Below, piece by piece: positions 4,706-48,916 of a stretch of 64,000 nucleotides of DNA. Origin of the DNA: Raoultibacter timonensis (GTDB lineage: Bacteria; Actinomycetota; Coriobacteriia; Coriobacteriales; Eggerthellaceae); contig NZ_LT964679.1 in assembly GCF_900240215.1 (NCBI RefSeq), forward strand, positions 1,332,089 to 1,396,088. The letters are read 5' to 3'. Numbering within the stretch: the first letter of the stretch is position 1; each line of letters starts with the position of its first letter. The notes beneath the pieces were generated by a model. The model was given only the letters and a program-made list of their open reading frames with translations, did no database searches and had not been told where the DNA came from. Both the position numbers and the translations under genes were made by a program.

Positions 4706-5722
4706 ATGTTCGAACAAGCCAGCCTCGAAGACCTTGCCTCGTTTCGTTTCGGCCATGCCGCCGATGCCGAACTCGCAACCGGATGCACCGTCGTCATCGC
4801 ACCCGAAGGGGCCGTGTGCGGCATCGACGTGCGCGGCGGCGGACCCGCTACCCGGGAAACCGATCTGCTCAAACCAGAGAACATGGTCGAGGCCGTGCAT
4901 GCAGTCGTCCTTTCGGGCGGTTCGGCATTCGGACTCGAAGCGAGCTCGGGCGTTATGGACGCCCTCGCCGAACGGGGCGTCGGCTTCCCCGTCGAAACCG
5001 CACGGGTACCCATCGTTACCAGTGCGTGCCTGTTCGATCTGCTGATCGGAAAACCGGGTCACCCCGACAAAGCCATGGGCCGCCGCGCCGCCGAAGCGGC
5101 GTTTGCGTGCGAGCCGTTTGGAGAAGGCAACGTTGGAGCGGGAACCGGCGCAACCGTCGGCAAGCTCCTCGGGAGCGAACGCGCTATGAAATCGGGGTTC
5201 GGCATCAACGCGATGCGATTCGGCGACCTCGTCGTAGCGGCGCTCGTAGCGGTCAACGCGCTCGGCAACGTTCGAAACAAGGATGGGGTCTGGATCGCCG
5301 GATGCCGCGATGATGATGGATCAGTCATGGACGGGACTACGGCATTCGAATTCGCCGCGCAGGCGATGGCGGCTCAGGCCGCCGCTCAAACGGCGGCGGA
5401 AGCGCCGGAGTCGCCGGCAGAACCGGGCGGCCCCCCCTGCGCCAACACGACGATCCGCGTCGTCGTCACCAATGCGCGCCTGACCAAGGCGCAGGCGACC
5501 AAAGTCTCGTCAACCTGCCATGACGCCTACGCGCGCGCCATCAAGCCGGTTCACACCTCAAACGACGGCGACACGATCTTCACGTTCGCTTCCGGCGATA
5601 TCGCCGCCCCGAGCGATCTTGTAGCCGTCATGGGAACCGAGGCGATGCAGCAGGCCATCTGCCGAGCCGTCACCTCGGCTGCATCGGCGTACGGCCTGCC
5701 CGCTGCCGACGATATCGCGTGA
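4706..5722 (+). CDS. P1 (DmpA/ThnT-type) Ntn-hydrolase peptidase
   Basis: A 338-residue protein of the self-cleaving P1 peptidase family, which includes D- and beta-aminopeptidases. Family hallmarks seen are VLSGGSAFGLEA (69-80), GNVGAGTGATVGK (141-153), FEFAAQA and CANTTI. In the family the chain cleaves itself just before a Ser/Thr nucleophile, and Thr248 in NTTI is the best candidate. An Ala/Pro/Glu-rich linker (about 220-245) sits just before this point. A TACAAT box (4670-4675), directly after the LysR stop, and an RBS-like GAAGGGAA give it a possible own promoter. It is followed after 8 bases by the channel gene. Physiological substrate unknown. Confidence 0.85.
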   Translation: MFEQASLEDLASFRFGHAADAELATGCTVVIAPEGAVCGIDVRGGGPATRETDLLKPENMVEAVHAVVLSGGSAFGLEASSGVMDALAERGVGFPVETARVPIVTSACLFDLLIGKPGHPDKAMGRRAAEAAFACEPFGEGNVGAGTGATVGKLLGSERAMKSGFGINAMRFGDLVVAALVAVNALGNVRNKDGVWIAGCRDDDGSVMDGTTAFEFAAQAMAAQAAAQTAAEAPESPAEPGGPPCANTTIRVVVTNARLTKAQATKVSSTCHDAYARAIKPVHTSNDGDTIFTFASGDIAAPSDLVAVMGTEAMQQAICRAVTSAASAYGLPAADDIA

Positions 5723-5730
5723 GGACGGCC

Positions 5731-28540: not shown

Positions 28541-29356
28541 CTAGCGCAGCATGTCCACGAATACGTCATCGAGCACAACGTCTCGATCGGCGCAGTCGGC
28601 ATCGAACTCGACCGCATCGTAGCCCGGCGCCTCTATGCGTACGCGATATGACGCTTTCTCGCACTCGCAATAGCGAAAATCACCGAACTCGTCGGTCTCC
28701 ACCTGCGCAACAACCTCGCCATCCGCATCGAAGATGGTTACGGGTACGCCGATGATCACCTCGTTCTCACCGCGATTCGCCACCGTGCCGGCAATCCAGC
28801 GCTTCGGACGGTTGACGTAGTACACATGCGAGCCCAGGCCTTCCAGACGCTCGTCCGCAGCACCCGCGGCAATCTCGTCGGCGAAGTCCTCGATATCGCC
28901 CCAACGCAGTGCATCGGTCGCGCAAGCATCGACACAGCGCGGCTGCGACCAGCCACTATCCAGCAAATGCGCGCAACCCGTGCACTTCTGGGCAACTTGG
29001 GCGTCGCCGTTGAAGTACACCATGCCCAGAGGGCAAGCCTCGGCAAGGTCGCGGCGTCCACGCGCCTTTTCGGGGTCGATGACCACCAATCCGTCTTCGC
29101 GACGATAAACCGCTTCGGGTGCCAACCCGATCAGGGGACACGCGTCGCAATGCCCGCAGAACGTGGGCGTATACGCCACGCGCACGACCGGCATGCGACC
29201 GCGCTCCTCCTCGTCCACGCGGCACCAAAACTGCCCGGTCTGGGGCTGCGCGAGGGCGATAGGAGCCCAATCGTTTTCGCAATGTTCGTCTTTGCAAGCA
29301 AGCTGGCAGTTGTAGCAGCCGTTGCACCTGTTCAGATCAACTATCAGTGCCTTCAT
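28541..29356 (-). CDS. Transhydroxylase-type iron-sulfur beta subunit
   Basis: A 271-residue electron-transfer subunit. Twelve cysteines in ferredoxin spacing fit three 4Fe-4S clusters: Cys11/14/17/21, Cys67/70/73/108, and Cys125/128/141/145. Residues about 188-262 form a beta-rich carboxypeptidase-regulatory (Cna-B-like) domain with a DGEVVAQVETDEFGDFRY strand pair. Three clusters plus this extra domain at about 275 residues is the layout of the beta subunit of pyrogallol-phloroglucinol transhydroxylase. It starts 5 bases after the alpha subunit stop and surely forms a complex with it. No signal peptide. Confidence 0.9.
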   Translation of the reverse strand: MKALIVDLNRCNGCYNCQLACKDEHCENDWAPIALAQPQTGQFWCRVDEEERGRMPVVRVAYTPTFCGHCDACPLIGLAPEAVYRREDGLVVIDPEKARGRRDLAEACPLGMVYFNGDAQVAQKCTGCAHLLDSGWSQPRCVDACATDALRWGDIEDFADEIAAGAADERLEGLGSHVYYVNRPKRWIAGTVANRGENEVIIGVPVTIFDADGEVVAQVETDEFGDFRYCECEKASYRVRIEAPGYDAVEFDADCADRDVVLDDVFVDMLR

Positions 29357-29361
29357 ACCCG

Positions 29362-31971
29362 TTATGCCCCCTCGATGTAATCACGTACGTCCTGGCCGTA
29401 GGAAGCGTCGTAGTACCGGTTCCTGTTGAATTCTTCGGGATACTTCGCGGCGAGCTCGAACACGTCGACCTTCTCCACGCCCACCAAATAGCCGCTTGTC
29501 ACTTCACCGTCAGCGTTTTTCGATGTCGTCGCCGTCGGGCAGATGAGGTTGATGGCGCCTCCGCGATCGAGTCCGCCCACACCCGACACGATAACGTCGG
29601 AGTTTGCGCCGTGATCCATGTATACGACTTCGGGACGAATGCGCTCGGTCACGCGAACGCCGCCCAGCACGCTGCCGCGCTCGTTGTACACCTTCACCAC
29701 ATCGCCGTCGGCCACGCCCACGCTCGCCGCGTCAGTCGGATGCATCCACAGCGGCTCGTATGCATAGCCGTCAGGGCCGATGACCTTGCACGTTTGAATC
29801 TCGCGCAACCATTCGACATCGTCGAACTCCGCATGCACGCGCCAACGCGGATGGTTCGACACGATGAGGAACGGGTATTTTTTCGCACGATCGGAGCTGC
29901 GGCGGTCATCATGGCCGTCGCCCGATTCGCGCCAATGCGCAACCGGACCGCGCAGCTCGTCGTCAGGAAACATCGTCGCCAACGGCTGCGAGTAGAATTC
30001 GATCAAGCCCGTCGGCGTCTCGAGCGGATTAGCTGCCGGATCCTCCGCAAACGGGGCCAGGCCGACCGGCTGGTCTTCCCACCCCTCTTCGGTGGGAATC
30101 AATTGGTAGCCTCGCTTTTTGAACGCCTCGAAGTCGCGATCTTCCTCGGGAATGCCGCAAGCTTCGTAGCCCTCCTTCACCTGCTGTTCGATGGTTTTGC
30201 CCTTCGTCATGCGCTGCACGACGCCCTCGTACACCCCGCCGAATTTTTCGAGCGCTCGGCCGATCTCCTGCACGGCGATCCAATCCGACTTCGCCTCCCC
30301 AACCGCATCGATTGCGGCCTCCTCAAACGTGACGGCGCTCCATTGCCCGGAGTCGTTGTCGGTACCGAAATCGCTGACCTCGAACTTCGTGCAGATAGGC
30401 AGTACGATATCGGCAAAACGGGCGTCGTCTTCAAACCACGGGGCCTGCACCAGATAGAACTCCAGATTCTCGCTCTTCAGGGCATCCTGGAACTCGTAGC
30501 CGCCGTTGAGGCTGGTCGTGAATGCCGGGTTGTCCGACCACAACATCTTCACGCCCGCATCGCCCTCGAGCGGGAACCGGAAGTGCTTGAACTGGTCTGC
30601 GCGCGGATCGGCAGCCGTCCCGTGCCCGTACCACTCCAGCTTCTCGCCGCGCAGAGCCTTGTGAATATGCACCTTCGGAACGAAACTGTCGCCGCCCTGG
30701 CCGATGAGGGGGCCGTTGTAGCAGGCTGCCGTGTTGGGGATAACCTTCGAAAGGGGCAGCGGGCTGCACGACGACATGCCGAACAGAACCCATTCGATGT
30801 ACTTGATGGAAATGCGGCCCGGTTTGCCCACGCCCTGCATGGCCAGCAGATACACTTCCAAGCGAGCGGGCTCGTGGGCGAACGCCGCACGGATAAACGA
30901 GCCGCCGTTGCAGTGCGCGATGGAGACCGCATGGCTCGCCCAGTAACGAGCGAGCGCCTTGATGCGGTACGCGGGAATTCCGCAGATGGGCTCGGCCCAT
31001 TCAGGCGACTTAGGTACGCCGTCTTCATTGCCGAGCACGTAGTACTCGAACCAGTCGAAGCCGTCGGAGTGCGTTTCGATGTATTCGCGATCGTACGTGT
31101 TCTCGGTCATCCACACATACGCGATAGCCAGCTGCAGCGCGGCATCGGTATTCGGAAACACGGGGAACCATTTGTCGGCGTGCACGACAGCCGTGTAGTT
31201 GCAATCGGGAGCGATGGCGATGTTTTTGATGCCGCAGTCCTCGAACCAAAACGCCATGCGAGAAGCCATCTGGCCGCCCCAGCCCCACGTGGTGGTCTCG
31301 AGATCGCACCCCCAGTACAGAAGCGCATCGCAATGCTGCGCGATATCCTGAGCAGTATTCGTAGAATGGGTGTTCTGCCCGACGGGATCCATGCCCCACG
31401 CATGTTTCGCCCCCCAGTACCAGCCCTCCCAGCTGTCGGGGTTGCGGTTCTGGATGGTGAAGCCGCCGCATTCCCCCAAAAGACGCGTCATGCAGCCGTG
31501 CGGAGTATTGATCGCCTTGCTCTCGCCGTGGCCGTCCGCTTGGCAAAGGATGGAATTCGGGCCGTATTCGTCGTGCACGCGCTTTATTTCTTTTGCGATG
31601 ATCTCGCATGCCTCGTCCCAGCTGATACGCTCGTACTTGCTGGTACCGCGCATCTCCGGATGCCGATCGCCCCCCGGATTCCAGTCGACGCGCTTCATCG
31701 GATACGGAATGCGGTTCTTGGAATACGTGCGCCGCTTGTACACCAGCGGAAACGGTGGCATATACGACTTCATTCCCGGCTCGAGCGTCTTGCCGCCGCG
31801 ACCGGTGATGGTCCAGTAATTAAGCTCTTCTTTCGTATAGTCGTTTTCAAAGTGAACGGGGCGAATGCGCGCAAGCCTGCCATCCAGCACATCGGCGGCG
31901 ACGATGTTCGCACCTCCCCCGAACGACTCCAACCCGAGGTTGTGCACGACGGTTTTCTCGGAAATTATCAA
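29362..31971 (-). CDS. Transhydroxylase-like molybdenum enzyme, alpha subunit
   Basis: An 869-residue bis-MGD molybdoenzyme without an N-terminal 4Fe-4S motif and without a Tat signal, both features of pyrogallol-phloroglucinol transhydroxylase alpha (875 aa). The block NPDSWEGWYWG (177-187) matches the transhydroxylase active site, where the Ser (here 180) ligates Mo and the Asp (here 179) is catalytic; His148 fits the third catalytic residue. The TTG start at 31971 follows AAAGGGA at good spacing, and no better ATG exists. It is encoded with a matching beta subunit, an MFS carrier and a DASS transporter. Likely chemistry is hydroxyl transfer or removal on a polyphenol; the exact substrate is unknown. 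Confidence 0.9.
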   Translation of the reverse strand: MIISEKTVVHNLGLESFGGGANIVAADVLDGRLARIRPVHFENDYTKEELNYWTITGRGGKTLEPGMKSYMPPFPLVYKRRTYSKNRIPYPMKRVDWNPGGDRHPEMRGTSKYERISWDEACEIIAKEIKRVHDEYGPNSILCQADGHGESKAINTPHGCMTRLLGECGGFTIQNRNPDSWEGWYWGAKHAWGMDPVGQNTHSTNTAQDIAQHCDALLYWGCDLETTTWGWGGQMASRMAFWFEDCGIKNIAIAPDCNYTAVVHADKWFPVFPNTDAALQLAIAYVWMTENTYDREYIETHSDGFDWFEYYVLGNEDGVPKSPEWAEPICGIPAYRIKALARYWASHAVSIAHCNGGSFIRAAFAHEPARLEVYLLAMQGVGKPGRISIKYIEWVLFGMSSCSPLPLSKVIPNTAACYNGPLIGQGGDSFVPKVHIHKALRGEKLEWYGHGTAADPRADQFKHFRFPLEGDAGVKMLWSDNPAFTTSLNGGYEFQDALKSENLEFYLVQAPWFEDDARFADIVLPICTKFEVSDFGTDNDSGQWSAVTFEEAAIDAVGEAKSDWIAVQEIGRALEKFGGVYEGVVQRMTKGKTIEQQVKEGYEACGIPEEDRDFEAFKKRGYQLIPTEEGWEDQPVGLAPFAEDPAANPLETPTGLIEFYSQPLATMFPDDELRGPVAHWRESGDGHDDRRSSDRAKKYPFLIVSNHPRWRVHAEFDDVEWLREIQTCKVIGPDGYAYEPLWMHPTDAASVGVADGDVVKVYNERGSVLGGVRVTERIRPEVVYMDHGANSDVIVSGVGGLDRGGAINLICPTATTSKNADGEVTSGYLVGVEKVDVFELAAKYPEEFNRNRYYDASYGQDVRDYIEGA

Positions 31972-32016
31972 CGTCTGATCCCTTTCTCTCTTCTCTCGTT
32001 CGCTTTCGATGTAAGG

Positions 32017-33315
32017 CTATTGCTCGAGACGAGCGCGTTCTTCGGCTCGCACCTCGGAAATCTTTCTGTCGGACTTGACGAACACGATGACGGCTGCAGC
32101 GGCAAGCACGGCGAGCGGCGCCAAAACGAACTGCGCGTTCGCCTGCCACCCCGCGTTCGCAACGATGGGCGAAACGATGTAGCCGCCCACAACCTGCGCC
32201 ACGCCCGTGGCAAACGCCATGGTGGCCAGCACGAGATCGGTTTTTTTCGGTTCGGGGACAAGCACCGGGGCAATGGCACGGGTTCCCGTGGGCACAAGCG
32301 CGCCGCACAAACCCATGAGGATGCTTGCAATCCAGGGGCCCGTCATGTCGGTACCGGGGGTAAAGTAGAAGAACGCCATGCACAGGGCCACCAGAAGATA
32401 ACCGCCGGCGATCATCCACTTGCGAAAGTTAAGCCTGTCGGCAACCACGCCGAACGCGATGCCGAGCGGTATGGAAATGATAGCCGTCCAATTGGGAAGC
32501 ATGGCCGAATCGAATACGCTCAGGCCTTTGACGTTCTGCAGGAACGTCGGATACAAAGTGTTGATGTTCGCAACGTAGTCGAACACCCATACGAAAAAGA
32601 ACGCGCACACCACGAAACCGGCCAGCATGTAGTTGCGGCCCGGCTTTTTGCGGCGGGTGGGATCACCGTCGACCAACTCGTTTTCAGGAATGGCGGGCAT
32701 CTTACAGCAAGCCAGCAGCCACACGATGGATACGATTTCCATGGCGATGGAAACGTACCAGATGGGTCTCCACGAGAACGCAAGCGCGGCCCCGCCGGCA
32801 GCATCGAAGATCATCGGAGCCGTAAAGAACGCGATAACCACGCCAACGGGCGTCCACTGCGACCAGACGCCCATGCACAGACCCTGATCCTTCAAGGGAA
32901 ACAGACGGGGCATGATGTTGGGGCCGATGACGCAAATCAAGCCGTAGGCTACGCCCTCGAGCGTGCGTCCCACCAAGAACAACGCCGTATCGGGCGCGAA
33001 TACGCAGATGAGAGAACCGACCAGCTGCAACACCGACGTAACGACGATGGAGAATTTTACACCCAGGCGCTGCATGACGAACATGCCGGGAAAGGCCAGC
33101 AGCATACCGGCAATGGAGAACACGCCCATGATCTGGCTGAGCATCTCAACGGACATTCCCAAATCGGCACCGATGAACTGGATAGCAGGTGCGGCTTTGA
33201 ACTGGTTGAACGTCGCAGTAAAGCCGAGGAAGAACAACGCAGCGAAGCACAGCCAACGCTCCGTCGAGTCGAGCTGGCGACTCTGCACGCCATAACGAGA
33301 AACGGATGATGCCAT
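32017..33315 (-). CDS. MFS transporter of the transhydroxylase operon
   Basis: A 432-residue carrier with about 12 membrane helices. Typical MFS marks are QFKAAPAIQFIGADLG early, GRTLEGVAYGLICVIGPNIMPRLFP near residues 105-128 and the ADRLNFRKW loop in the middle. The ATG at 33315 has AGGGGG upstream and starts MASSVSRYG; an upstream in-frame region lacks an RBS. It is the first gene of the operon, 45 bases ahead of the molybdoenzyme, so it likely brings in the aromatic substrate. A 6-bp hairpin (33342-33358) lies in its 5' untranslated region. Confidence 0.88.
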   Translation of the reverse strand: MASSVSRYGVQSRQLDSTERWLCFAALFFLGFTATFNQFKAAPAIQFIGADLGMSVEMLSQIMGVFSIAGMLLAFPGMFVMQRLGVKFSIVVTSVLQLVGSLICVFAPDTALFLVGRTLEGVAYGLICVIGPNIMPRLFPLKDQGLCMGVWSQWTPVGVVIAFFTAPMIFDAAGGAALAFSWRPIWYVSIAMEIVSIVWLLACCKMPAIPENELVDGDPTRRKKPGRNYMLAGFVVCAFFFVWVFDYVANINTLYPTFLQNVKGLSVFDSAMLPNWTAIISIPLGIAFGVVADRLNFRKWMIAGGYLLVALCMAFFYFTPGTDMTGPWIASILMGLCGALVPTGTRAIAPVLVPEPKKTDLVLATMAFATGVAQVVGGYIVSPIVANAGWQANAQFVLAPLAVLAAAAVIVFVKSDRKISEVRAEERARLEQ

Positions 33316-36709: not shown

Positions 36710-37963
36710 CTATGCCGTTTCGGGAGCAGCCTCGAGAGCGCGGTTTTCGGCCTCTTCCGCATCGAGGAGCTTGTCCTCGGCTTCGAGCTGCTCTGCTTTC
36801 TTGACCGCGAGCAGCATGGCAAACGCGATCGCGCATATCCCCGCCGAGAGCTTGCCGATGAGCACCGGCACGATCATCGAAGGCTGGAAGTTGGCAGTGA
36901 AGGAAAGATGGTCGCCGAACAGAAACGCACAGCAGACCGCGAAGGCAAGCGTGATCACCTTATCGCGCGCCTTGAGGTCCTTGACCATGGCGAGCAGCGC
37001 AAGCACGTTTGCCGATGCAGCGAGCAGCCCGGTTGTCGCATCCGAGCTCAATCCGAAAACCCCACCTATTTTCGCAAGAGGCTTGGCAAGATACCTCCTG
37101 ATAAGGTACACCATCGGAAACGCCCCGCACAGCATCATGCCGATTGCACCCGATACCTCGAGAGCCCTGAATATATCCTCTTCGTCAGCGATGATCGGAT
37201 CGAATCCGAACGAGCCGAAAACAGTCGTAAACACGCCGGTAAAGTATTCGATGACAGCCAGCACGAACACGAGTTTGAGCACGCTTTCGAGTACGCGCCC
37301 AAATACGATGAAGCCTTTGATCATGGCATCCGGCGCAAACCGCAGCCCCAGGGCAAGGGCGACGCAGATGATGATGAGGGGAACAAGGTTCAATCCTATT
37401 TGTGCGAAACTCAAAGCAAGCTGATACGTCGCTTCGGAGTTGGTCGAAACAACCTCGCGAATAACGGGGTTCGCAACGGCGATGATGACGCTTCCCACCA
37501 GCACGCCGATCGGAATGGCCAAAAGCCCGCTCATAACGCCGAGGGCCAGGTACTTGCGATCTTTTTTCTGCAGCATCTTCAAAGCAACGGGAATGGTGAA
37601 CACGATGGTCGCACCGGCCATATACCCCGTGATCATAGCCATCATCCAGCTCTCACGCGTTTGCGCAAGGGCGTCGGCGAGCTGATAGCCCCCCATATCG
37701 ACGGCGATGAACGTTGTGGCCGCCATCGCAGGATCGGCGCCGAGCGCCCCGTACACCGGACCGAATACCGAACTCACGAATGCAGTCAAATACGGTGCAG
37801 CAGCCATGATGCCTGCGACGGGCAAAAAGATAGGCCCGATGGAATCGATGCCCGCCACAAACTGCTGCCCAAGCTCGCTTTCGGGCTTGATTACCGACGC
37901 AACGGCACCTGCAAAGGCACATGCCATGATGATGTAGACCACGATGGTCCCGAACAGTTCCAT
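36710..37963 (-). CDS. eutH: EutH-like ethanolamine transporter
   Basis: A 417-residue membrane protein with about 10-11 helices. It aligns by eye with EutH along its length: FIAVDMGGYQLA, TIVFTIPVALKML, DRKYLALGVMSGLLAIPIG (near residues 134-152), RALEVSGAIGMMLCGAFPMV and FLFGDHLSFTA. EutH lets ethanolamine into the cell. No other eut genes or microcompartment genes are present. Instead it is the last gene of the lic-like operon, 101 bases after the LicCA fusion, so it may feed ethanolamine (or choline) to that kinase rather than to catabolism. The C-terminus has an extra acidic tail. Confidence 0.85.
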   Translation of the reverse strand: MELFGTIVVYIIMACAFAGAVASVIKPESELGQQFVAGIDSIGPIFLPVAGIMAAAPYLTAFVSSVFGPVYGALGADPAMAATTFIAVDMGGYQLADALAQTRESWMMAMITGYMAGATIVFTIPVALKMLQKKDRKYLALGVMSGLLAIPIGVLVGSVIIAVANPVIREVVSTNSEATYQLALSFAQIGLNLVPLIIICVALALGLRFAPDAMIKGFIVFGRVLESVLKLVFVLAVIEYFTGVFTTVFGSFGFDPIIADEEDIFRALEVSGAIGMMLCGAFPMVYLIRRYLAKPLAKIGGVFGLSSDATTGLLAASANVLALLAMVKDLKARDKVITLAFAVCCAFLFGDHLSFTANFQPSMIVPVLIGKLSAGICAIAFAMLLAVKKAEQLEAEDKLLDAEEAENRALEAAPETA

Positions 37964-38064
37964 ATTGCTTCCCTCTCTCGCATGCCGCGGCGGCGGCAGA
38001 ACAAACTAAAGCCGTTGATGCATGTATGCTAGAAGACGATCCCGCGATGCCCGTCCAGAGCTGC

Positions 38065-39837
38065 CTACAAAGCCGCCTCGTAAAGCCCGATGGCATACCT
38101 GCCATACGTCTTCGCGGCGCGATACCACAGGTAGAGCCATTCCCCCACGGGATCGCCCGACGACTCTTTGTAAAGAGCCCAGACAAACCAGTAGTACGCA
38201 CTTATCGCCGTATATGCGAGACAATGGCGCATCTCCGCTTCCGTCGGCTTCCCTTTGAAATACTCGGAAATCACGCCTCTCGCTTCATCGAGCGTGTAAT
38301 CGGAACAGCAGATAAACGTACCGAGATCACTCGCGTAATCGGACATAGCCGAGTATTCCCAATCGATAAGGTACATGAAGTCGTCGCGGACGAGGAAGTT
38401 CGGATTGTAGAAATCGTTGTGGCACAAGCAAGGCTCAACTCGATCCGACTTCACGAACCGATCGAGAGCATGTGCTCGATCGGACAGCTCATCGAAATCG
38501 GGGAACGACGGATATGCCCGCTCTCCGAGCAGAACAACGATTTCCTGCGCCTTCTCGTACACATCAAAGTACCACTCGGACTTCTCTCCGCTTCCATGAA
38601 GCCTGCGTGCAAGAGCTAATCCTCTCTCAACATGCGAAGGATTGTGGTAGTCGAAATCTACGCAATCAGGCAGATACCGAGACAGCTTCCACCCCTTGCG
38701 AGGATCTTCGTATATGAACGTATCGTCGATGCCGAGCCTTTTGGCGACCTCCTGCGAATACGCTTCGCTTTCCCGGTTGATGATCTCAGCGGTTCCTGCG
38801 CCGGGATGTCGGTAGACGTACAGCCCGCCAAGGCACCCAAATCGAAACGAGAGGTTGGTGAGGCCCTCTTTAAGCGGAGCAATATCGACTATATCGATAC
38901 GCTCGCACTCGAGAACGCTGCATATGTTGTCAAGAATCTCCGAATCGACGTTGTCGATAAAATCATGATCGAAGTCCCTCAGATCATCAAGGGAGTCGAA
39001 CTCGAAAATAACACCGGGCTCGAAGGGGCGCATAACCATATCGAGATCTTTGATATGGTCGATGTAAATGTCCTCCCAAAGCTTTCCTGCGGTTTCGGGT
39101 TTTCCATAATCATCTTCCAAGAACCTCTTGAAGCGGTTTGAAAAATCCCGATCGAAATACACATGCCCAAGCATGCCGTAGGAATCGACGCCACCCACCG
39201 TAACCTTGACGATCCGGTTCCCCGGTCCGACCGTCAAGCAGTATTCGTCGGTCTCGCCTTCAAAATACTGGGCCGAATAGTACGCCTGATACTCGTACGG
39301 AGAAAAGACGTTCTCGGTGAAGTAGTCATCGGAAGAGCAGATGTACGTATTGCCAAGCTGCTCCTTCACCAGCATCAACGTAGAGTTGTTGTTTCTCGTC
39401 ACGTAGTCGTCGTTCACTTTGATGGTAACGCCGAACGTATCCTCTAGATAGAAAAACGCTTCTTTCATGTACCCGACAACCACCGTTATGTCGTCTATGC
39501 CGGCCTCTTGGAGCTGACGTATCTGCCGCTCGATGAGCACCTCCCCCCGAACCTTTAAAACCCCTTTGGGCTTATCGTAGGAAATAGGGGCAAACCGCGA
39601 CGAGAAACCCGCCGCCATGATGATCGCGTTATCGACGCGATACGGCTCCAATGCGGCAAATCCCGCAGGCGTAACCTCGTAAGATTTATCGAGAAGCCCC
39701 GCATCCAGAAGATTCTTGCACGCCGCGTTGGCCGTTCCAAGCGACGCGCCGATCGCTTCGGCGATATCGCGCTGCGACCCGACCTCGCGCAAAGCGCACG
39801 TCGAAAGAATCGAAAATTCGTTCTTCAGTAACTGCAT
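38065..39837 (-). CDS. HTH + phosphocholine cytidylyltransferase + choline kinase fusion (LicCA)
   Basis: A 590-residue three-part protein. Residues 1-64 are a winged helix (EVGSQRDIAEAIGASLGTANAACKNLLDAG). Residues about 68-300 are a LicC-type nucleotidyltransferase (IIMAAGFSSRFAPIS, KPKGVLKVRGE). Residues about 305-590 are a LicA-type kinase with catalytic HNDFYNPN (from about 473) and LIDWEYS. The last two parts would phosphorylate choline or ethanolamine and make its CDP derivative; the first could bind DNA and control the genes. The layout mirrors NadR. The RBS is weak and a very AT-rich gap with symmetric TTGAAC sites precedes it. Base composition looks lower in GC than its neighbours. 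Confidence 0.9.
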   Translation of the reverse strand: MQLLKNEFSILSTCALREVGSQRDIAEAIGASLGTANAACKNLLDAGLLDKSYEVTPAGFAALEPYRVDNAIIMAAGFSSRFAPISYDKPKGVLKVRGEVLIERQIRQLQEAGIDDITVVVGYMKEAFFYLEDTFGVTIKVNDDYVTRNNNSTLMLVKEQLGNTYICSSDDYFTENVFSPYEYQAYYSAQYFEGETDEYCLTVGPGNRIVKVTVGGVDSYGMLGHVYFDRDFSNRFKRFLEDDYGKPETAGKLWEDIYIDHIKDLDMVMRPFEPGVIFEFDSLDDLRDFDHDFIDNVDSEILDNICSVLECERIDIVDIAPLKEGLTNLSFRFGCLGGLYVYRHPGAGTAEIINRESEAYSQEVAKRLGIDDTFIYEDPRKGWKLSRYLPDCVDFDYHNPSHVERGLALARRLHGSGEKSEWYFDVYEKAQEIVVLLGERAYPSFPDFDELSDRAHALDRFVKSDRVEPCLCHNDFYNPNFLVRDDFMYLIDWEYSAMSDYASDLGTFICCSDYTLDEARGVISEYFKGKPTEAEMRHCLAYTAISAYYWFVWALYKESSGDPVGEWLYLWYRAAKTYGRYAIGLYEAAL

Positions 39838-39860
39838 GAAATATCCCTATCGTATTAAGC

Positions 39861-39956
39861 GTTCACAATAAGATATTTTACGATAATTTTGAACAATATT
39901 TACCAATAATTGATAAATATTTGTTCAATTCATATAAACTGTATTAATAATTGAAC
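39861..39956. promoter_or_regulatory. AT-rich 96-bp dyad with four TTGAAC-type half-sites
   Basis: Half-sites GTTCAC (39861-39866), TTGAAC (39889-39894), GTTCAA (39923-39928) and TTGAAC (39951-39956) lie symmetrically about position 39908.5 at spacings of 28, 34 and 28. The inner pair extends to near-identical 14/15-bp arms containing TTGAACAA and TATTTA. This is the best candidate operator for the HTH domains of the LicC-type proteins; binding is inferred. Confidence 0.65.
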
Positions 39957-40853
39957 CTATGATACATAGGCGGCATCGATTTCCTGGAGTTCTCGGAATG
40001 TATCTATCTCGGCGATATCGTCAAACGAGCATTCCCTGATGCGCACGGTATAGTGCTCCGAGAAGTACCTCAACGCAACCTCGTCCCAATAACGCTCTTT
40101 ACCGCCCGGCATTTCATAGGTTGCAACGATATCTCGAGAGAGCTTTTTCCCGTCCTCTGCAGTCCAGTACGAAATCCCGAACATATGATGGCAATCAACT
40201 CCCCCAACCGTCAGGTTGGTGATGACGCCGCGCTTCGTTTCGAAGCACCAATCATCGGTAACCTCTACGGGAACGCCGAGATAGTTGGAATCGTACTGGT
40301 ACTTGGAAACGAGCTTGGGATTCGAAAGCAAAAGATCGGATTCGAGCACATAGGCGTTCTCGAGAAGGTCTTTAGCCGCCAAAGCAGACGATATGTTGTT
40401 TGCTTCGTTGTACTGGGGATTCTCTATGAATCGAATGTTCGGGTACTGATAGAGAAGCTGATCGAACTGCTCGGCAAGATAGCCGCGAACAACGTATACC
40501 TCCTCGATACCGGCCGCGTACACCGCATCGAGAAGCGAATCGATAATGCGTCGGCCATGCACGCGAATAAGGGGCTTGGGGGTATTGAGCGTAATGGGAA
40601 CGAGCCTCGTGCCAAACCCGGCCGCAACAAGCACAGCCCGTTTTACCCGATACGGCTCCAACTCCTCGAGCCCACGCGAAGTAAGCGCAGCTTCATCGAT
40701 AAGGTTGCGCTCGACAAGCTCCGACACAACCTTGTTTACCGTTCCAACCGAAAAGCCAACCGCTGCCGCAATCTCCCTTTGAGTCATGGGCGAATCGCTC
40801 GCCTCGAGGGTTGATAGTATCTTGAACTCTTTATACTCTAGCGAACCGCGCAT
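39957..40853 (-). CDS. HTH + LicC-type nucleotidyltransferase
   Basis: A 298-residue two-part protein. Residues 1-66 form a winged helix (SPMTQREIAAAVGFSVGTVNKVVSELVERN). Residues about 70-298 form a LicC-type cytidylyltransferase with VLVAAGFGTRLVPITLNTPKPLI, AGIEEVYVVRGYL and an acidic metal site near YVLESDLLL. It is a shorter paralogue of the LicCA fusion behind it and lacks the kinase. Its ATG overlaps the permease end by 16 bases, so it belongs to the transporter operon. It may be a second cytidylyltransferase with different substrate, or mainly a regulator. Confidence 0.88.
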   Translation of the reverse strand: MRGSLEYKEFKILSTLEASDSPMTQREIAAAVGFSVGTVNKVVSELVERNLIDEAALTSRGLEELEPYRVKRAVLVAAGFGTRLVPITLNTPKPLIRVHGRRIIDSLLDAVYAAGIEEVYVVRGYLAEQFDQLLYQYPNIRFIENPQYNEANNISSALAAKDLLENAYVLESDLLLSNPKLVSKYQYDSNYLGVPVEVTDDWCFETKRGVITNLTVGGVDCHHMFGISYWTAEDGKKLSRDIVATYEMPGGKERYWDEVALRYFSEHYTVRIRECSFDDIAEIDTFRELQEIDAAYVS

Positions 40854-42436
40854 TCCTGCCTGCTCCTTATTGCCCTTTTAATACCCGCCATTATCAGTTT
40901 AAGCACAACGTTCGTGCCGAGAATCATCAGAGAAACAAACGCCGTGCATTCGGTAAGCCGTTGCGCATCAAGGTCGGTGATGAGCAGCGCAAGCGGCATA
41001 TCGAGCGTCGTGGCCAAAAACGCCACCGCCGAAATGGTCACCATGCAGTTAACGAAAAAGTACGAAAACATTTCAACGATGGTCTCGGACGTCTGAGGAA
41101 TGAGAACATCCTTCAGAATGCTCGCCCGACTGATCCCCATGGTCGAGCCGACGGCTTCGAGATTTTCATTTACCTTGCCGAGCGAATTGTAGGCCATGAG
41201 GTACGGCGACGCAAAGAAGTGCACCAGATTTGCAAGAATGAGTATCGCAAACGTGCCATAGATGAAGGTCCCCTTGAAGAACAGCACATAAGACAAGCCG
41301 AGAACGATGCCGGGGATGGCGAGCGTTGTTATGGCAACGAGATGCAGGATCTTCGCCGAGCGACCCTTTATCCGCGCCGTAATATAGCCGGCGAAATAAG
41401 CAAGCAGCGTACCGATCACCGATACCGCAAGGGCGATCAGCAACGAGTTCACCCAATAGTCGCCAGCGTTCATATTGAAGGATCGCCCGACGTTTGCAAA
41501 GGTAAACGATAGGTCGATCGGATACTTGGTCACGAACGACACGATTGCAAACGAGCAGAGCGGCAGCAGAATGAACAAGGACATGCCCAAGCTCATCAAG
41601 TAGCCGAGCGCATCGCGTACCCGGTTTTTCGCAATGGCAAACCCCCTTGATACAAAAGAGAGCTTTCCCTTGTCGGCATTGAGCATATCGACGAGAAACG
41701 CTACCACGGCGGGAATGAGCAGTACGAAACCGATAGCAACACCGGTATCAAAATTCATCAGACCAATGACCTCCTGATACATGAGTACCGGAAGCGTCGT
41801 GCATTTGCCTCCCACCATAAGAGGAACGCCGTAATCGGTTACCACGAGCGTGAACGTGGCGAACACGGCCGATATGAGGGGCTTGCGAAGATACGGCAAC
41901 GTGATGCTCAGAAACTGGTGCGTCTTGGGAATACCGAGAATATCCGCCGCCTCGTAAGGCAGCGCGTCCTCGTATTTGAGCACATCGTAAACAATAAGGA
42001 AAGCCGAGGGAAACGAATAGAGCACCGAACCCATAACGATGCCCCAGAACCCGTAGATGGACCCGTCAAGGAAAAACAGGTTCGTGATGATGCCGTTCGA
42101 GCCGAAAAGAAACACCAAACCCATTCCATGGGCGAGCGACGGAATGAGCATCGGCAGCGTCATGAGCACGCCGATCGCCGCCTTCCCGCGAATATTGGTG
42201 CGGCAGAGCACCCAGGCCATGGCGATCGCCAGCCCGACCGCGATAACCGTCGACGTCAACGCCACCGCAACCGAGTTGATGCATGCGGTAATAAACTGTT
42301 CGGTACCGAAAACCGCCTGGGCTCCGGGGTTCGCGAGGTTCGCAAACAGCCCCAGCAACGGCAGGATAGCCGCAAACAAAAAGAAAAGCGCAAGCACAAT
42401 GCGCGTTACCGTGAGCCTTGCCTTTCCTCCTCCCAC
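40838..42436 (-). CDS. ABC transporter permease, fused two-domain type
   Basis: A 532-residue permease with about 12 helices, made of two binding-protein-dependent permease halves in one chain, as in AfuB/FbpB-type iron and 2-aminoethylphosphonate-type importers. Coupling loops are visible near YEAADILGIPKTHQFLSITLP (about 181-201) and LEAVGSTMGISRASILKDVLIP (about 428-449). The GTG at 42436 follows TAGGATATC next to the stop of the ATPase gene. With the linked LicC/LicA genes it may carry choline, a choline ester or a phosphonate; the substrate is not set by sequence. Confidence 0.87.
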   Translation of the reverse strand: MGGGKARLTVTRIVLALFFLFAAILPLLGLFANLANPGAQAVFGTEQFITACINSVAVALTSTVIAVGLAIAMAWVLCRTNIRGKAAIGVLMTLPMLIPSLAHGMGLVFLFGSNGIITNLFFLDGSIYGFWGIVMGSVLYSFPSAFLIVYDVLKYEDALPYEAADILGIPKTHQFLSITLPYLRKPLISAVFATFTLVVTDYGVPLMVGGKCTTLPVLMYQEVIGLMNFDTGVAIGFVLLIPAVVAFLVDMLNADKGKLSFVSRGFAIAKNRVRDALGYLMSLGMSLFILLPLCSFAIVSFVTKYPIDLSFTFANVGRSFNMNAGDYWVNSLLIALAVSVIGTLLAYFAGYITARIKGRSAKILHLVAITTLAIPGIVLGLSYVLFFKGTFIYGTFAILILANLVHFFASPYLMAYNSLGKVNENLEAVGSTMGISRASILKDVLIPQTSETIVEMFSYFFVNCMVTISAVAFLATTLDMPLALLITDLDAQRLTECTAFVSLMILGTNVVLKLIMAGIKRAIRSRQECAVR

Positions 42437-42442
42437 GATATC

Positions 42443-43207
42443 CTACGCCTCCATGAATCGCGCGAGAGAATCCATCTTGATGCGAAGGTTCTCGACCACG
42501 AAATCGGACACGTACTTGTCAGCCGGATTCGCTATGATCTCCTCGGGAGTCGCCAGCTGGTGGATCCTTCCTTCGCCCATCACCATAACGCGATCGGACA
42601 AAGCGAACGCCTCTTCCTGATCATGGGTGATATATATCATCGTCGTGCCAAACTCACGCTGAATGCGCTTGAGCTCGCCGCGCAGCGATAACCTTGTTTC
42701 CACATCGAGAGCGCTCATGGGCTCGTCGAACAGAATAATGTCCGGATTGAGCGCCAGCGTACGCGCAATGCTCACCCGTTGCTGCTGGCCTCCGGATAGC
42801 TGGTGGATCTTTTTGTCGAGGTGCTCCGAAAGCCCCAACTGATCGAGTACCGCGGTAGCGACTTCACGACGCCGAGACTTGAGTTCGGCATTGAACCTGA
42901 GCGCATACTCGACATTGCCTAAAACCGTCATGTTCTCGAAGAGTGCATAGTCCTGGAATACAATGCCCATATGCCGCTCATCCGGCCTTGCGCGCGTGAT
43001 GTCCATCCCGTCAAGCGATACCGTACCCTCGTCAGGGGCAAGTAGACCGATGAGAATCCTCAGCGTAGTCGTTTTACCGCACCCCGACGGGCCGAGAATC
43101 GAAAGGAATTCTCCGTCATACACATCGAAATCAAGACCGTGAAGCGTATCGGACCCATCGAATCGCTTGGTAAGTCCCCTAATGGACAGCTTGGTCGTTT
43201 CGCTCAT
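42443..43207 (-). CDS. ABC transporter ATPase (PotA/FbpC-like)
   Basis: A 254-residue importer ATPase. Walker A is GPSGCGKTT (38-46), the signature is LSGGQQQR, Walker B is IILFDEPMSALD and the H-loop is ITHDQEEA. The C-terminal TOBE sensor domain of PotA-like proteins is absent, so the protein is shorter than the usual 350 residues. It follows the binding-protein gene by three bases. It energises the two-domain permease. Confidence 0.92.
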   Translation of the reverse strand: MSETTKLSIRGLTKRFDGSDTLHGLDFDVYDGEFLSILGPSGCGKTTTLRILIGLLAPDEGTVSLDGMDITRARPDERHMGIVFQDYALFENMTVLGNVEYALRFNAELKSRRREVATAVLDQLGLSEHLDKKIHQLSGGQQQRVSIARTLALNPDIILFDEPMSALDVETRLSLRGELKRIQREFGTTMIYITHDQEEAFALSDRVMVMGEGRIHQLATPEEIIANPADKYVSDFVVENLRIKMDSLARFMEA

Positions 43208-43210
43208 GGT

Positions 43211-44215
43211 TCAGTACTTCCACCTCTCTAGGAGCCGCTTCTTCTCGTCGATATCGAAAATGCCCGTCATATCGGCGTACTCGGCATCGGTTGGATAGTT
43301 CTCGATGGAGGTATCCTGCTCAACAAATACCCGATCGGGAACAAACTCCTGCTTATCGAGCAATATCCCCTTCTCGTACATCCAATCCATAACAGCTCGA
43401 ACGGCCGGCTTGCCTTCCTTGCCCTCGATCACGGCAACTCCGTTCATCGTCCAAGGAGACCCCTCTTCGAATTCGACTATCTCGATCGGAACGCCTTGGT
43501 TGATCTCGGAAACAGCCTGATACGTAAGCCCCATGCCAATAAGCGCCTCGCCCTGGACGAGCGCGTTGACAGGACCCGAACCCGAAGAGGTGAACTGGTA
43601 AACGTTTTCCGCAAGAGCATCGAAATAGGCGAACGCCTCATCCTCTCCCCGTTCGTTCACGAGGCTTTTCACAAAATTGTAGCCAGTACCCGATGATTTG
43701 GGGTTCGGCATGCAGATGAGCCCTTTGTACTGGGGATCGAGCAGATCGTCATACGATTGCGGCACCGAAAGCCCGCGCGACTCAAGAGCCTCTGCGTTCA
43801 CGGCGATACAGGCGCTCTCTCGCCTGAACGGAAGATATTTGCCCGTTCCGTCAAGGAGGTCGTCCTCGAATACGCTGAAATCGTAATCAAGGGGAGCAAG
43901 AACATCCTCGATCTGGCGAAGATACCCTCCCTCAAGCATGAGAATGATGTCCGCCTCGCTCTGAACGCCCTCGTTCTTGATGCGGGCGGCACCAGATCCC
44001 GTCGAGACGTAATGCAATCGGATATCGTACTCCGAAAGATCCTCGTGCATGGCGGCGAGCAGGAGCTCGTTGGCTTCGCCCTCCCCGCATGAGTAAATGA
44101 CGACCGTGTTCTCGTTAGCCGAGCCGCAACCTGGCAACAGCATAGAAGCGGCGAACAGGCAACCGACGGCTATCGCCCCTCGACGGGTTATGGATCGCCC
44201 GGAATAACGACGCAT
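43211..44215 (-). CDS. ABC transporter substrate-binding lipoprotein (family 1)
   Basis: A 334-residue periplasmic-type binding lipoprotein. The N-terminus carries a Tat-like TRRGAIAVG and a lipobox LLPGC (Cys about 30), then VVIYSCGEGEANELL, DIILMLEGGYLRQIE and MPNPKSSGTGYNFVKSLV, typical of the iron/phosphonate/thiamine binding group. The ATG at 44215 was chosen for its CAGGG RBS; the longer TTG frame would begin inside the promoter. It is the first gene of the operon and has a promoter with a palindrome between -35 and -10. Confidence 0.88.
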   Translation of the reverse strand: MRRYSGRSITRRGAIAVGCLFAASMLLPGCGSANENTVVIYSCGEGEANELLLAAMHEDLSEYDIRLHYVSTGSGAARIKNEGVQSEADIILMLEGGYLRQIEDVLAPLDYDFSVFEDDLLDGTGKYLPFRRESACIAVNAEALESRGLSVPQSYDDLLDPQYKGLICMPNPKSSGTGYNFVKSLVNERGEDEAFAYFDALAENVYQFTSSGSGPVNALVQGEALIGMGLTYQAVSEINQGVPIEIVEFEEGSPWTMNGVAVIEGKEGKPAVRAVMDWMYEKGILLDKQEFVPDRVFVEQDTSIENYPTDAEYADMTGIFDIDEKKRLLERWKY

Positions 44216-44258
44216 TTCAAAACCCTGTTCTGTACATGTTTGAATAAGCATGCCAGTA

Positions 44259-44287
44259 AGTGTAGCGTGAACGTTCAATTATGTAAA
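44259..44287 (-). promoter_or_regulatory. Promoter of the lic-like operon with TGAACGTTCA operator in the spacer
   Basis: Minus strand TTTACA (44282-44287), 17 bases, TACACT (44259-44264). The perfect 10-bp palindrome TGAACGTTCA (44268-44277) fills the spacer, the usual position for a repressor site. A further TGAAC lies at 44302-44306. The same half-site recurs in the gap before the LicCA gene. Confidence 0.75.
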
Positions 44288-44376
44288 GGAAAAGTCAAAT
44301 CTGAACATGATAGGGAGCTAAAACCTGCACATCCCTTCGAAGGAAGCCGACAGGCTGCGGCCTCGCGAACACGGAG

Positions 44377-45513
44377 CTACCGTATGGCGCCGCAGCCTCC
44401 CCCGCTCTCGACAACCGATCGGTAGAACCGCTCGAGCCACCGAGCCGATTCCCCGATGCCGAACCCCCGCTCGCCAACCTCCGCAACATGATCGTGTCGC
44501 GCGTTCGCTTCGCGAAGAAGGGCAACGACCTCTAACGCCCACGCATCCGCACCGGCATCGAGCGGCATGCGCTTTGCCGAATCGACGAGCATTGCAGCCT
44601 GCGGCACACCCGTCGATGCCACAACGGGAAGGCCGGTCGCCTGCGCTTCGATAACGGCTATGGCCAACCCCTCCTTGAACGACGGGAACACGAATGCATC
44701 GAACGCCTTGAGCAGACCCGGCACGTCCTCCCTCACACCGAAAAAATCGACTGCATCCGCTATGCCGAGCTCGCATGCCTCCCGCTCGATCTCCTCGGCA
44801 AGGGAACCCCGGCCAACGCATGCGAGTCGCGCGCGCGGAAGTTCTTTTCTCACCCCCGAGAACACCTGCAACAAAAACCGATGGTTCTTTACCGGATCGA
44901 GCCTCCCCACGTGGCCTACGAGCGGTATCTCTTCATCGTAGCCGTACGCCTTCTTGCATGCCTTATGCATGGCGTCGTCGCAACGGTATAGATCAAGGTC
45001 TATTCCGTTTTTAAGGATGCTGAAGTTCGGGCCTTCCGTAACAAAGCGACCGAACCGATCACGGCCGGCCTCCTGCGAGCAGGCCATAAAGTAATCGGCA
45101 ACGTACCGAGTTGGATACGAGAGGGCGCGAAACGCTATCTCGGAAAGGCTCACGGGGTATTTCTGGGCATGGCTATGGGCTATCGCGAAGCGATCCGCCC
45201 GTCTTGCCTCCGACAAATAGAGCGCCGCGCTACTCCCGATATGGCCATGGACGATCGGATGCTCGCCGTGCTCTGCAAAGAACGCGCGGAACGCCTTTCG
45301 ATACGCGCGCGCGTTCGTCCCCTTGAACCTCGGAACACGAAAGATCCGTCCGCCCAGCGCTTCTATTTCCGCGTCGTAATCGCACGCCCTCTCTTCATGC
45401 ACGACGAAGTCGAACTGTATAAGGGAGCGGTCGATCGCCCGGTACAGGTTCATGATCATCGTTTCGGCGCCGCCTCGGTCCATCGCGCCGATCACATGCA
45501 GGACCCTGATCAT
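44377..45513 (-). CDS. Glycosyltransferase family 4
   Basis: A 378-residue GT-B enzyme. Acceptor side: IGAMDRGGAETMIMNLYRAID (about 8-28) and VHGHIGSSAALYLSEARR. Donor side: GHVGRLDPVKNHRFLLQVF, the EGLAIAVIEAQATGLPVVAS block with the conserved Glu pair. Its ATG overlaps the flippase stop (ATGA). It is the last gene of the leftward group that begins near 49604, just before the promoter of the lic-like operon. Confidence 0.9.
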   Translation of the reverse strand: MIRVLHVIGAMDRGGAETMIMNLYRAIDRSLIQFDFVVHEERACDYDAEIEALGGRIFRVPRFKGTNARAYRKAFRAFFAEHGEHPIVHGHIGSSAALYLSEARRADRFAIAHSHAQKYPVSLSEIAFRALSYPTRYVADYFMACSQEAGRDRFGRFVTEGPNFSILKNGIDLDLYRCDDAMHKACKKAYGYDEEIPLVGHVGRLDPVKNHRFLLQVFSGVRKELPRARLACVGRGSLAEEIEREACELGIADAVDFFGVREDVPGLLKAFDAFVFPSFKEGLAIAVIEAQATGLPVVASTGVPQAAMLVDSAKRMPLDAGADAWALEVVALLREANARHDHVAEVGERGFGIGESARWLERFYRSVVESGGGCGAIR

Positions 45514-46880: not shown

Positions 46881-47672
46881 TCACAGGGCATACGCCTCGA
46901 ATACATGCACGTCCCTGTCTTCCTCCGCGGGAGGTGTGCGCCAATCGCCATACGTTTTCGTCAGGTATTCCTCATAGCTTTTCGGAATGAAGTAGCGGCG
47001 ATCCTCGAACGGCACTTCAAGCGGCTCGAACCATGCTTTGGGAAGCAGCGTGCCGGCAACGTACTCCCCAATGATGTCACCGTAGAAATCGGTCTCGCGC
47101 GCACATGCGTTGCGCGCGTTCTCGTCGATCTTCCGAGCGGCAGCATAGGGATCCATACGCGAGAAGAACGGATGGGCGATGCGCTTCACCAACTTCACGA
47201 ACGGACTCGAACCCACCGACGGGTCCGCCACCATCAGGCTTCGCACGAGCGCGAGCCGCGTTCCCCGCACATACGCCCTATCGCGAGCGTTGGGGGCTTC
47301 GTCAAGCGGGAAAATATCGACCCATACCCCTGTCGCATAGGTTTTTTGCACGAAATTCTCGTATACCTTCGTCGTCTTGTCGACCACCTTTACGAACGGG
47401 TAGATTCCGCTTTTGTCACGGTATGTCGCAAGGCCGAAGCGATCGGATGCTTTCGCTGCATCGAACTCCGCGATCAAACGCTCGTAGTCCGCTCGGGGCA
47501 TCAAGATGTCCATATCGTCGTCCCATGGTATGAAACCGCCGTGACGCACAGCGCCAAGGCAGCTGCCGTATGCGAGAAAGTACGAAAGGCCCTTCTCTCT
47601 GCAAATGCGATCGATTTCATCCATGATTTCGAGCTCGATGCGCTTCATGTCATCGGTGGTGATTCGCTCCAT
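46881..47672 (-). CDS. licD: LicD-family phosphocholine (phospho-alcohol) transferase 1
   Basis: A 263-residue LicD protein that transfers phosphocholine or a similar phospho-group from a CDP carrier to a sugar. The hallmark YGSCLGAVRHGGFIPWDDDMDI (about 33-54) with its Asp cluster is intact, followed by VWVDIFPLDEAP. The ATG at 47672 (MERITTDDMKRIE) lies 13 bases after the stop of the second LicD gene with AAGGACGAGG upstream. It links the glycan cluster with the LicC/LicA genes 7 kb away. Confidence 0.9.
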   Translation of the reverse strand: MERITTDDMKRIELEIMDEIDRICREKGLSYFLAYGSCLGAVRHGGFIPWDDDMDILMPRADYERLIAEFDAAKASDRFGLATYRDKSGIYPFVKVVDKTTKVYENFVQKTYATGVWVDIFPLDEAPNARDRAYVRGTRLALVRSLMVADPSVGSSPFVKLVKRIAHPFFSRMDPYAAARKIDENARNACARETDFYGDIIGEYVAGTLLPKAWFEPLEVPFEDRRYFIPKSYEEYLTKTYGDWRTPPAEEDRDVHVFEAYAL

Positions 47673-47685
47673 CCTCGTCCTTCCG

Positions 47686-48549
47686 TCAAACCGAAGCATG
47701 CGCATCGATGGCGCCGCTGCCAAAATCGAGAACAAGGGGCGCGTGGTTCGTTCTCAGCTCCACGGGGGGTATTTCCCTATACGTCGGACCGTACCACGTC
47801 TCAAGATACGTTTTAGAATCATGGGGTATGGGCAGCGCAATTCCCTCGAACTCGCAGATAGCGGGAGGCAAAAGCGTCTCGATCGCGAACGGCGGATCGG
47901 GAGGATACGACATGGCGGCATAGCAGCCAGCCACCCCCCCTCCCTCGGCAGCTCGCGCTGACTCGTCGAAGGATCGGGCGATCCTCTCCGGCTCGAACAG
48001 CATCCGGCATATCCGGTGAGCAACAGCACAGGCGGCTCGCTCGAAAGACCCGAGCAGACCCCCATGAGGCACCTGCACGCTCTTCGCGTGATAAAGATAC
48101 GACACACGCTGCCAAAACGTGCAGCGTGAAAACTGCTTCTTTCTGGCTTTTCCATCGGGAAAAACAGGGTCATACGGAAACACGTCGACGAATATGCCCT
48201 GATCGAATGAGGCCTCGATCGTCTCTTGCGTGTAAAACTTCGTTCCCCGTTTCCAGACCTTGGCAAAAAGAGGAGCGTAGCCCGGGGTAACGCCCGGAAT
48301 GCCGATCTCGTATTCATCGCCAAGATCCTCTTTCGCCGCTTGGAGGAATCGCTCGTAATCGTCTCGGAGCATGCCGATGTCGATATCATCGTCCCACGGT
48401 ATGAAACCGCCGTGACGTACCGCGCCCAAGGCGGTACCGGAATCAAGAAAATAGACAATATCGCGAGCGGCGCACAGCTCGTCGATTCGTTTGAGTATCG
48501 CAAGCTCTTCAAGCTGCAGAGCTCTCAGCACTTCGTCATCGTACGTCAT
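47686..48549 (-). CDS. licD: LicD-family phospho-alcohol transferase 2
   Basis: A 287-residue LicD paralogue with LDSGTALGAVRHGGFIPWDDDIDIGM (about residues 33-58) and QGIFVDVFPYDPV. Identity with the first LicD is clear in the catalytic part and low elsewhere, so the two may decorate different sugars. The ATG at 48549 with GGGAAAG upstream overlaps the end of the DUF2304 gene by 14 bases; a start at 48585 would overlap more. Confidence 0.9.
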   Translation of the reverse strand: MTYDDEVLRALQLEELAILKRIDELCAARDIVYFLDSGTALGAVRHGGFIPWDDDIDIGMLRDDYERFLQAAKEDLGDEYEIGIPGVTPGYAPLFAKVWKRGTKFYTQETIEASFDQGIFVDVFPYDPVFPDGKARKKQFSRCTFWQRVSYLYHAKSVQVPHGGLLGSFERAACAVAHRICRMLFEPERIARSFDESARAAEGGGVAGCYAAMSYPPDPPFAIETLLPPAICEFEGIALPIPHDSKTYLETWYGPTYREIPPVELRTNHAPLVLDFGSGAIDAHASV

Positions 48550-48916
48550 TATCGACGCTTTCCCGCTTCGTCTTATAGCGCTCATGCCGATCCTTGTCGC
48601 GCAAGGCTATCTCCTGAGCAAGAACGTCAAGTCTCTCCCTCAAGCTGGAAACCTCGACGGTGAGAGTAAAGCATTTGATAAGCAGAAGAGCGATGACGCA
48701 GAGGAAGATAAAATTCGAAGGCGACTCGATGCCGATGAGACCCGAGAAGAAGAACACAACCGAGGGGAACACCGCCGCGATAACCAACGCCACGGCGAAA
48801 AGGAGCCAGAATACGGAATTAGCAACGCTCATCTCGGTTTTCTTCAGCTTGCGAAGCACGAACGCAAAGACGACAATCGCGCCGAGAACAAGGACGATAC
48901 GATAGTTAATGCTCAT
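48536..48916 (-). CDS. DUF2304 small membrane protein
   Basis: A 126-residue protein with three to four hydrophobic helices (near 7-21, 33-56, 67-84) and a basic C-terminal coiled segment (SSLRERLDVLAQEIALRDKDRHERYK). This matches DUF2304 proteins, which usually sit behind a DPM1-like glycosyltransferase, exactly as here (7 bases after it). It may anchor or modulate that enzyme; function is not established. Confidence 0.8.
   Translation of the reverse strand: MSINYRIVLVLGAIVVFAFVLRKLKKTEMSVANSVFWLLFAVALVIAAVFPSVVFFFSGLIGIESPSNFIFLCVIALLLIKCFTLTVEVSSLRERLDVLAQEIALRDKDRHERYKTKRESVDNDVR

Follow-up and report, generated by a model that had tools for sequence, protein, structure and literature searches.

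Winged-helix, LicC-type, and LicA-type domains combined in putative NadR-like enzyme-repressors that would control the import and activation of choline or another amino alcohol in Raoultibacter timonensis

NadR of Enterobacterales has an N-terminal DNA-binding domain, a nucleotidyltransferase, and a kinase in one chain and represses the genes of its own pathway, including that of the importer, pnuC; some homologues are without the DNA-binding domain (PMC12421817, PMC7221760). NAD is the corepressor in this system (PMC12421817). In the kinase LicA, the catalytic residues are D176, N181, D194, and E196, and the aromatic cage is composed of Y197, W251, W254, and Y268 (PMC4364537). The cytidylyltransferase Tde-PntC is specific for 2-aminoethylphosphonate (AEP) and has Glu104, Glu196, and a smaller pocket (PMC6697681).

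Two genes coding for LicC-type proteins with a DNA-binding domain were analysed on a 64,000-nucleotide stretch of the R. timonensis genome (contig NZ_LT964679.1), called here the window; both are on the minus strand, as are all the neighbouring genes described below. ORF A (38065-39837) codes for 590 aa and consists of a winged-helix domain (residues 5-66, 39640-39825), a LicC-type cytidylyltransferase domain (residues 70-290, 38968-39630), and a LicA-type kinase domain (residues 300-580, 38098-38940). ORF B (39957-40853) codes for 298 aa, with a winged-helix domain (residues 7-68, 40650-40835, recognition helix SVGTVN) followed by a LicC-type cytidylyltransferase, and overlaps the end of a permease gene by 16 bases. 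The order of Pfam matches is HTH_24 (residues 21-49, 1.7e-5), NTP_transferase/NTP_transf_3, and Choline_kinase/APH in ORF A, and HTH_24 (residues 6-52, 1.5e-9) and then NTP_transferase in ORF B. The HTH_24 match is above the cut-off in both proteins, and the NTP_transf_3 and Choline_kinase/APH matches of ORF A exceed the curated cut-offs. By sequence, the closest PDB relative of both proteins is LicC of Streptococcus pneumoniae (1jyk/1jyl), with 1jyk matching residues 64-290 of ORF A (1.6e-37) and 57-293 of ORF B (7e-26), and LicA (4r77) matches residues 301-580 of ORF A (1.4e-25). AlphaFold2 models, computed from alignments of homologues with each protein as a monomer, are confident along the whole chains (pLDDT 91.8 for ORF A and 93.4 for ORF B) and have a helix-turn-helix with a wing in both proteins. 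In ORF A, this domain has helices at residues 5-16, 22-29, and 33-45 and a small wing, and a helix at 57-66 leads nearly straight into the first cytidylyltransferase strand (70-75). Over 226 residues, the ORF B model fits LicC at Z 29.9 and 28% identity, and PntC (6pd1/6pd2) is the second-best fold match (Z 24.8); the VIA-align rows span residues 66-298 only, beyond the winged helix. The earlier note had read a winged-helix start on both LicC-type proteins and a LicA kinase extension on one of them, and Pfam, PDB relatives, and the confident models all bear this out. A genome search found no third winged-helix LicC protein.

The active sites are largely retained in alignments of relatives. The LicC metal-site residues Asp107 and Glu216 correspond to D170 (the invariant Asp170) and E279 in ORF A and to D173 and E282 in ORF B, and these residues, as well as those of the NTP loop in both proteins, are invariant or nearly so. 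The position of LicC D105 is occupied by Ser168 in ORF A and Glu171 in ORF B. The aromatic choline box of LicC (W136, Y190, and W191) is kept in ORF B (W202, Y255, and W256) and is poorer in ORF A (Y199, L253, and W254), judging from the aligned residues. In the kinase domain of ORF A, aligned to 4r77, the catalytic residues D475, N480, D492, and E494 and the counterparts of the LicA cage, Y495, W550, W553, and W567, are invariant or nearly so, the final cage Tyr having given way to Trp; Glu213 of LicA corresponds to Cys511.

Directly downstream of ORF A lies a gene for a EutH-family permease (36710-37963; Pfam and profile search). Upstream is an ABC importer operon that ends in ORF B and encodes a solute-binding lipoprotein (43211-44215, for which an internal ATG start is favoured over TTG at 44278), an ATPase (42443-43207), and a permease (40838-42436). 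The importer resembles the AEP set PhnSTU2, the lipoprotein being PhnS2-like and the permease PhnU2-like, but in the profile search every protein is far below the cut-off of that model. Two overlapping genes for LicD-family phosphotransferases (46881-47735 and 47686-48585) lie farther upstream, and their products likely consume the CDP product. No EutB and no PEP mutase were recognisable in the genome (3.93 Mb, 93% complete), so that EutH probably functions outside ethanolamine breakdown in this host, and the host is probably unable to make phosphonates itself. As a separate observation, the coupling of the PhnSTU2-like importer to ORF B (40838-44278), with PEP mutase not recognisable, may point to salvage of environmental AEP for surface decoration. 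Elsewhere in the window (29347-33309, plus strand), a 1320-codon open frame lies antisense to genes for a molybdopterin-type oxidoreductase and an MFS-type transporter; most likely it is an artefact of high GC content and not a gene.

The architecture recurs beyond the window. Searching a single genome for each species yielded 78 loci; 74 contain an ORF A relative, and all of these were examined. ORF A was found in Eggerthellaceae, other Coriobacteriia, Actinomyces, Bacilli, Erysipelotrichia, Clostridia, a Lactobacillus, and Bacteroidales, accompanied by ORF B in 43 loci and LicD in 23, and with EutH directly behind it in 15. Bacteroidales forms have no winged helix. In clostridial ORF A the N-terminus is still present but its helix-turn-helix is not significant in Pfam, while ORF B of the same group retains a helix-turn-helix. 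An ORF B-type gene with a decayed N-terminus lies behind ORF A in several Coriobacteriia. Some loci have further fusions. In a Mollicutes-like genome (locus L037, 7986-10685), winged helix, LicC, LicA, and LicC form one 900-aa chain, equal to ORF A and ORF B fused. An ORF B-type LicC is fused to an octopine-dehydrogenase domain in L038 (9742-11631), and in L052 a gene of its own between ORF B and ORF A codes for a similar dehydrogenase.

Sequences upstream of ORF A relatives have TGTTCA-N24/25-TGAACA in common. The candidate operator is the inverted repeat GTTCA-N24/25-TGAAC, which forms 34-base sites in the window. Over all loci, the pattern with a spacer of 24 or 25 bases had 20 and 23 matches, respectively, and about 1-2 with other spacers; the opposite arm order gave no spacer peak. 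The window contains four exact matches, compared with 0.08 expected, of which three are intergenic and one, taken as a chance match, is within the binding-protein gene. Two of the intergenic sites lie before ORF A (39861-39894 and 39923-39956, both GTTCA-N24-TGAAC, the latter with arms GTTCAATT/AATTGAAC), and the third (44273-44306) lies before the transporter operon ending in ORF B and overlaps the putative promoter TTTACA-N17-TACACT. A scan of the host's own genome gave 11 sites in 3.93 Mb, compared with about 7.5 expected by chance, and four of the 11 are at the ORF A/ORF B locus. A site within 250 bp upstream is present in 27 of the 39 ORF A relatives with an intact recognition helix (dinucleotide shuffles, 0.005). 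Of 502 control ORFs, 15 likewise have an upstream site; many of the ORFs listed overlap true genes or lie antisense to them. Among the matches listed in 79 family genomes, 20 of the 32 AT-rich sites are at the start of ORF A and eight more are within 8 kb of an ORF A, while all 43 GC-rich ones lie elsewhere and look like coding chance; the starts of ORF A were placed at fixed distances from matches to its C-terminal 71 residues.

Presence of the site is associated with the winged helix. The operator was found within 1.9 kb in 31 of 39 ORF A genes with an intact helix (S-L-G-T-V-N type) and in one of 31 with a decayed helix, classes that were fixed after the sequences had been inspected; Fisher's test gives 2.6e-11 for genes that are related to each other. 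In operator-bearing ORF A proteins, R23 and G34 are conserved in 22 of 22, S32 in 21, and Q22 and N37 in 20 each, and none of these residues is conserved in clostridial ORF A. Eight genes with an intact helix have no exact site within 1.9 kb; in one of them, L011, the site is 2.6 kb upstream, ahead of a three-gene run. A tree computed from only the enzyme domains has operator plus helix on either side of its midpoint root, which means that the two are old or travel as a pair. Just two helix losses in this tree, the clostridial group and L026, are also without the operator, and so few independent losses are the main limit of the helix-operator argument. The recognition helix of ORF B has the same S-x-G-T-x-N core as that of ORF A; for clostridial ORF B with a retained helix, a dyad search of upstream and intergenic DNA revealed no operator except in L047. 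Two loci deserve separate mention. L012 has an intact helix of the variant ALGTVN and, about 50 bp upstream of 8001, a symmetric site GTTCG-N24-CGAAC, possibly a co-change of helix and operator. In L027, the intact ORF A is preceded by a second copy (5049-6973) that is broken into three ORFs and has a near-match operator of its own.

The genes behind the site have import and activation as their common theme, as far as annotation of the loci tells. A site before the ABC importer operon is present also in L006, L014, L135, and L136. In L134, it lies between ORF A and a divergent pair of choline kinase and permease genes, the permease having pneumococcal LicB as its sole solved relative (5.9e-30, PDB search), and in L131 it is ahead of another LicB-like gene. 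Other sites lie ahead of NCS1 permeases (L128 and L133, with ORF A following directly in L128), a lone choline kinase (L130), an APC permease that heads a run with ORF B and ORF A (L047), an amidohydrolase that heads ORF A and ORF B (L038, L039, and L045), and a class V aminotransferase with a CTP-transferase-like gene that head ORF A (L011). A YtcJ-like amidohydrolase (Amidohydro_3) is itself conserved beside ORF A in Clostridia, Bacteroidales, and Bacilli (L043, 6400-7983; L049, 6407-7981; L067, 6414-7988; L038, 6393-7985). A -35/-10 pair with at least 8 of 12 positions matched starts inside 16 of 31 sites, compared with 2-10 of 31 at shifted positions, and a pair with at least 9 of 12 overlaps nine of 31 sites, compared with 0-3; about half of the 31 sites have no clear overlapping promoter. 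In the commonest arrangement, as at 44273-44306, TTTACA begins 10 bases ahead of the right arm, which places that arm between -35 and -10. For that subset at least, the overlap fits repression by blocking of the polymerase. The DNA that the earlier note had named for EMSA (44259-44287 and 39861-39956) proved to carry the conserved inverted repeat, and its suggestion that the enzymes control import gains independent support from a conserved operator that is linked to an intact winged helix and placed before importer genes.

We consider it probable that ORF A, and probably ORF B too, are NadR-like enzyme-repressors of the import and activation of choline or another amino alcohol. The kinase and cytidylyltransferase domains of ORF A would convert the imported amino alcohol, most likely choline, to its CDP form for the LicD transferases. 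Choline is the leading candidate for ORF A because its kinase keeps the LicA cage and LicB permeases share the operator. At two promoters, that of the ORF A-EutH operon itself and that of the importer operon ending in ORF B, the winged helix of ORF A would bind GTTCA-N24/25-TGAAC and block RNA polymerase; ORF B probably binds the same candidate sites, since the recognition helices share their core. The centres of the half-sites are 29-30 bp from each other, so that a dimer would have to keep its two winged helices about 100 angstroms apart on straight DNA. Regulation is proposed to follow the state of the pathway: abundant CDP product would bring about repression, which would be relieved when substrate runs short or the active sites stand empty. 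The CDP product is favoured as the repressing signal, by analogy with NAD, the corepressor in NadR, and because importers make up the predicted regulon; the alternative is that substrate causes release, and neither is put above about an even chance. Binding of the site and repression by ORF A, and probably by ORF B, are inferred, with good but indirect support from the conservation of operator and helix.

Readings of the inverted repeat as an RNA element, a chance match, or a low-complexity feature are very improbable. Such repeats arise readily in AT-rich intergenic DNA, but here the spacing is fixed across diverged spacers, the arm order is specific, the expected number in the window is far below one, and no Rfam match was found within 37500-45000. 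Somewhat less remote, though still unlikely, is a separate ordinary regulator that reads the operator, with the winged helix of ORF A and ORF B merely dimerising or stabilising the enzymes. Domains of the wHTH type can act as dimerisation modules, and L030 retains its operator although its helix is changed. Against such a regulator, the AT-rich sites of the family cluster at ORF A and seldom occur in other places, unlike the sites of a global regulator; conservation of recognition-helix residues, beyond those of the fold core, is confined to proteins whose genes have the site; and no other regulator common to the loci was recognised among the annotated genes.

For the enzymatic side, there is little likelihood that ORF A and ORF B are transcription regulators with their activity lost. 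Some substrate-side residues of LicC are indeed changed (D105 in both proteins and W136 to Tyr in ORF A), but the metal-site Asp, NTP-loop, kinase catalytic, and cage residues persist, and Bacteroidales keep versions without the helix-turn-helix as enzymes. A split of substrates, which is compatible with the enzyme-repressor explanation, is a doubtful but more realistic possibility: ORF A would act on ethanolamine from EutH or on choline, and ORF B on AEP brought in by the PhnSTU-like importer and salvaged for surface glycans. AEP salvage by ORF B is possible because it has Glu171 where Tde-PntC has Glu104 and LicC has Asp105, because its gene overlaps that of a permease in an AEP-like importer, and because a genome without a recognisable PEP mutase would depend on AEP import; EutB was not recognisable either. 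At the position of Tde-PntC Glu196, however, ORF B has D257, although most clostridial ORF B relatives have Glu at both positions. The importer proteins score well under the AEP model cut-offs, ORF B is nearer to LicC than to PntC (94 and 46 bits, respectively) and retains the aromatic choline box, and the choline cage in the ORF A kinase and the LicB-type permeases in the regulon of other genomes also speak against the split.

Phosphocholine on the bacterial surface determines how the cell meets host cells and immune proteins, and to our knowledge little is known about its regulation in commensals. If the enzyme-repressor explanation is true, the rule would be a one-component one, in which a choline-activating enzyme measures the level of its ligand and adjusts import, and the operator signature could help to locate loci for choline and similar pathways in Actinomycetota and Bacillota of the gut. 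More tentatively, a whole family of enzyme-repressors may serve choline, ethanolamine, or phosphonate surface decoration in these two phyla, with the cytidylyltransferase or kinase active site as the sensor that determines whether the operator, with its widely separated arms, is bound, and with duplicated ORF A and ORF B paralogues of different substrates sharing one operator, so that two substrates would compete for control of import.

Among described enzymes, LicC of S. pneumoniae has no DNA-binding domain and differs from ORF A and ORF B in substrate-side residues, and pneumococcal LicA is a single-domain enzyme, in contrast to the fused kinase domain of ORF A. PntC shares with ORF B a Glu at the amine-side position, but Tde-PntC is a fusion with a transaminase and ORF B with a winged helix. 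No description of LicC with a helix-turn-helix, winged helix, or other DNA-binding domain was found in the open-access literature, to which the search was confined, subscription papers lying outside it, and the fusions are not mentioned in a survey of ChoP pathways. ORF A resembles NadR in its domain order and in homologues that lost the DNA-binding part. A conserved candidate operator was found before pathway and importer genes, and repression through it would be a further parallel. Of the NadR layout proposed for it in the earlier note, the order of DNA-binding domain, nucleotidyltransferase, and kinase is real, but kinship is not: ORF A has a winged helix and LicC-type and LicA/APH-type domains instead of NMN adenylyltransferase and ribosylnicotinamide kinase, and cannot be counted as a NadR, because the two have no domain family in common. 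The pathway is another one, the operator is another with its half-sites 29-30 bp apart, and a two-domain version (ORF B) exists. If true, this would be a second, unrelated case of the NadR layout, with a bearing on how metabolic enzymes turn into repressors. Enzymes that double as repressors of their own pathway are already known from NadR; the version for choline-type surface decoration appears to be new.
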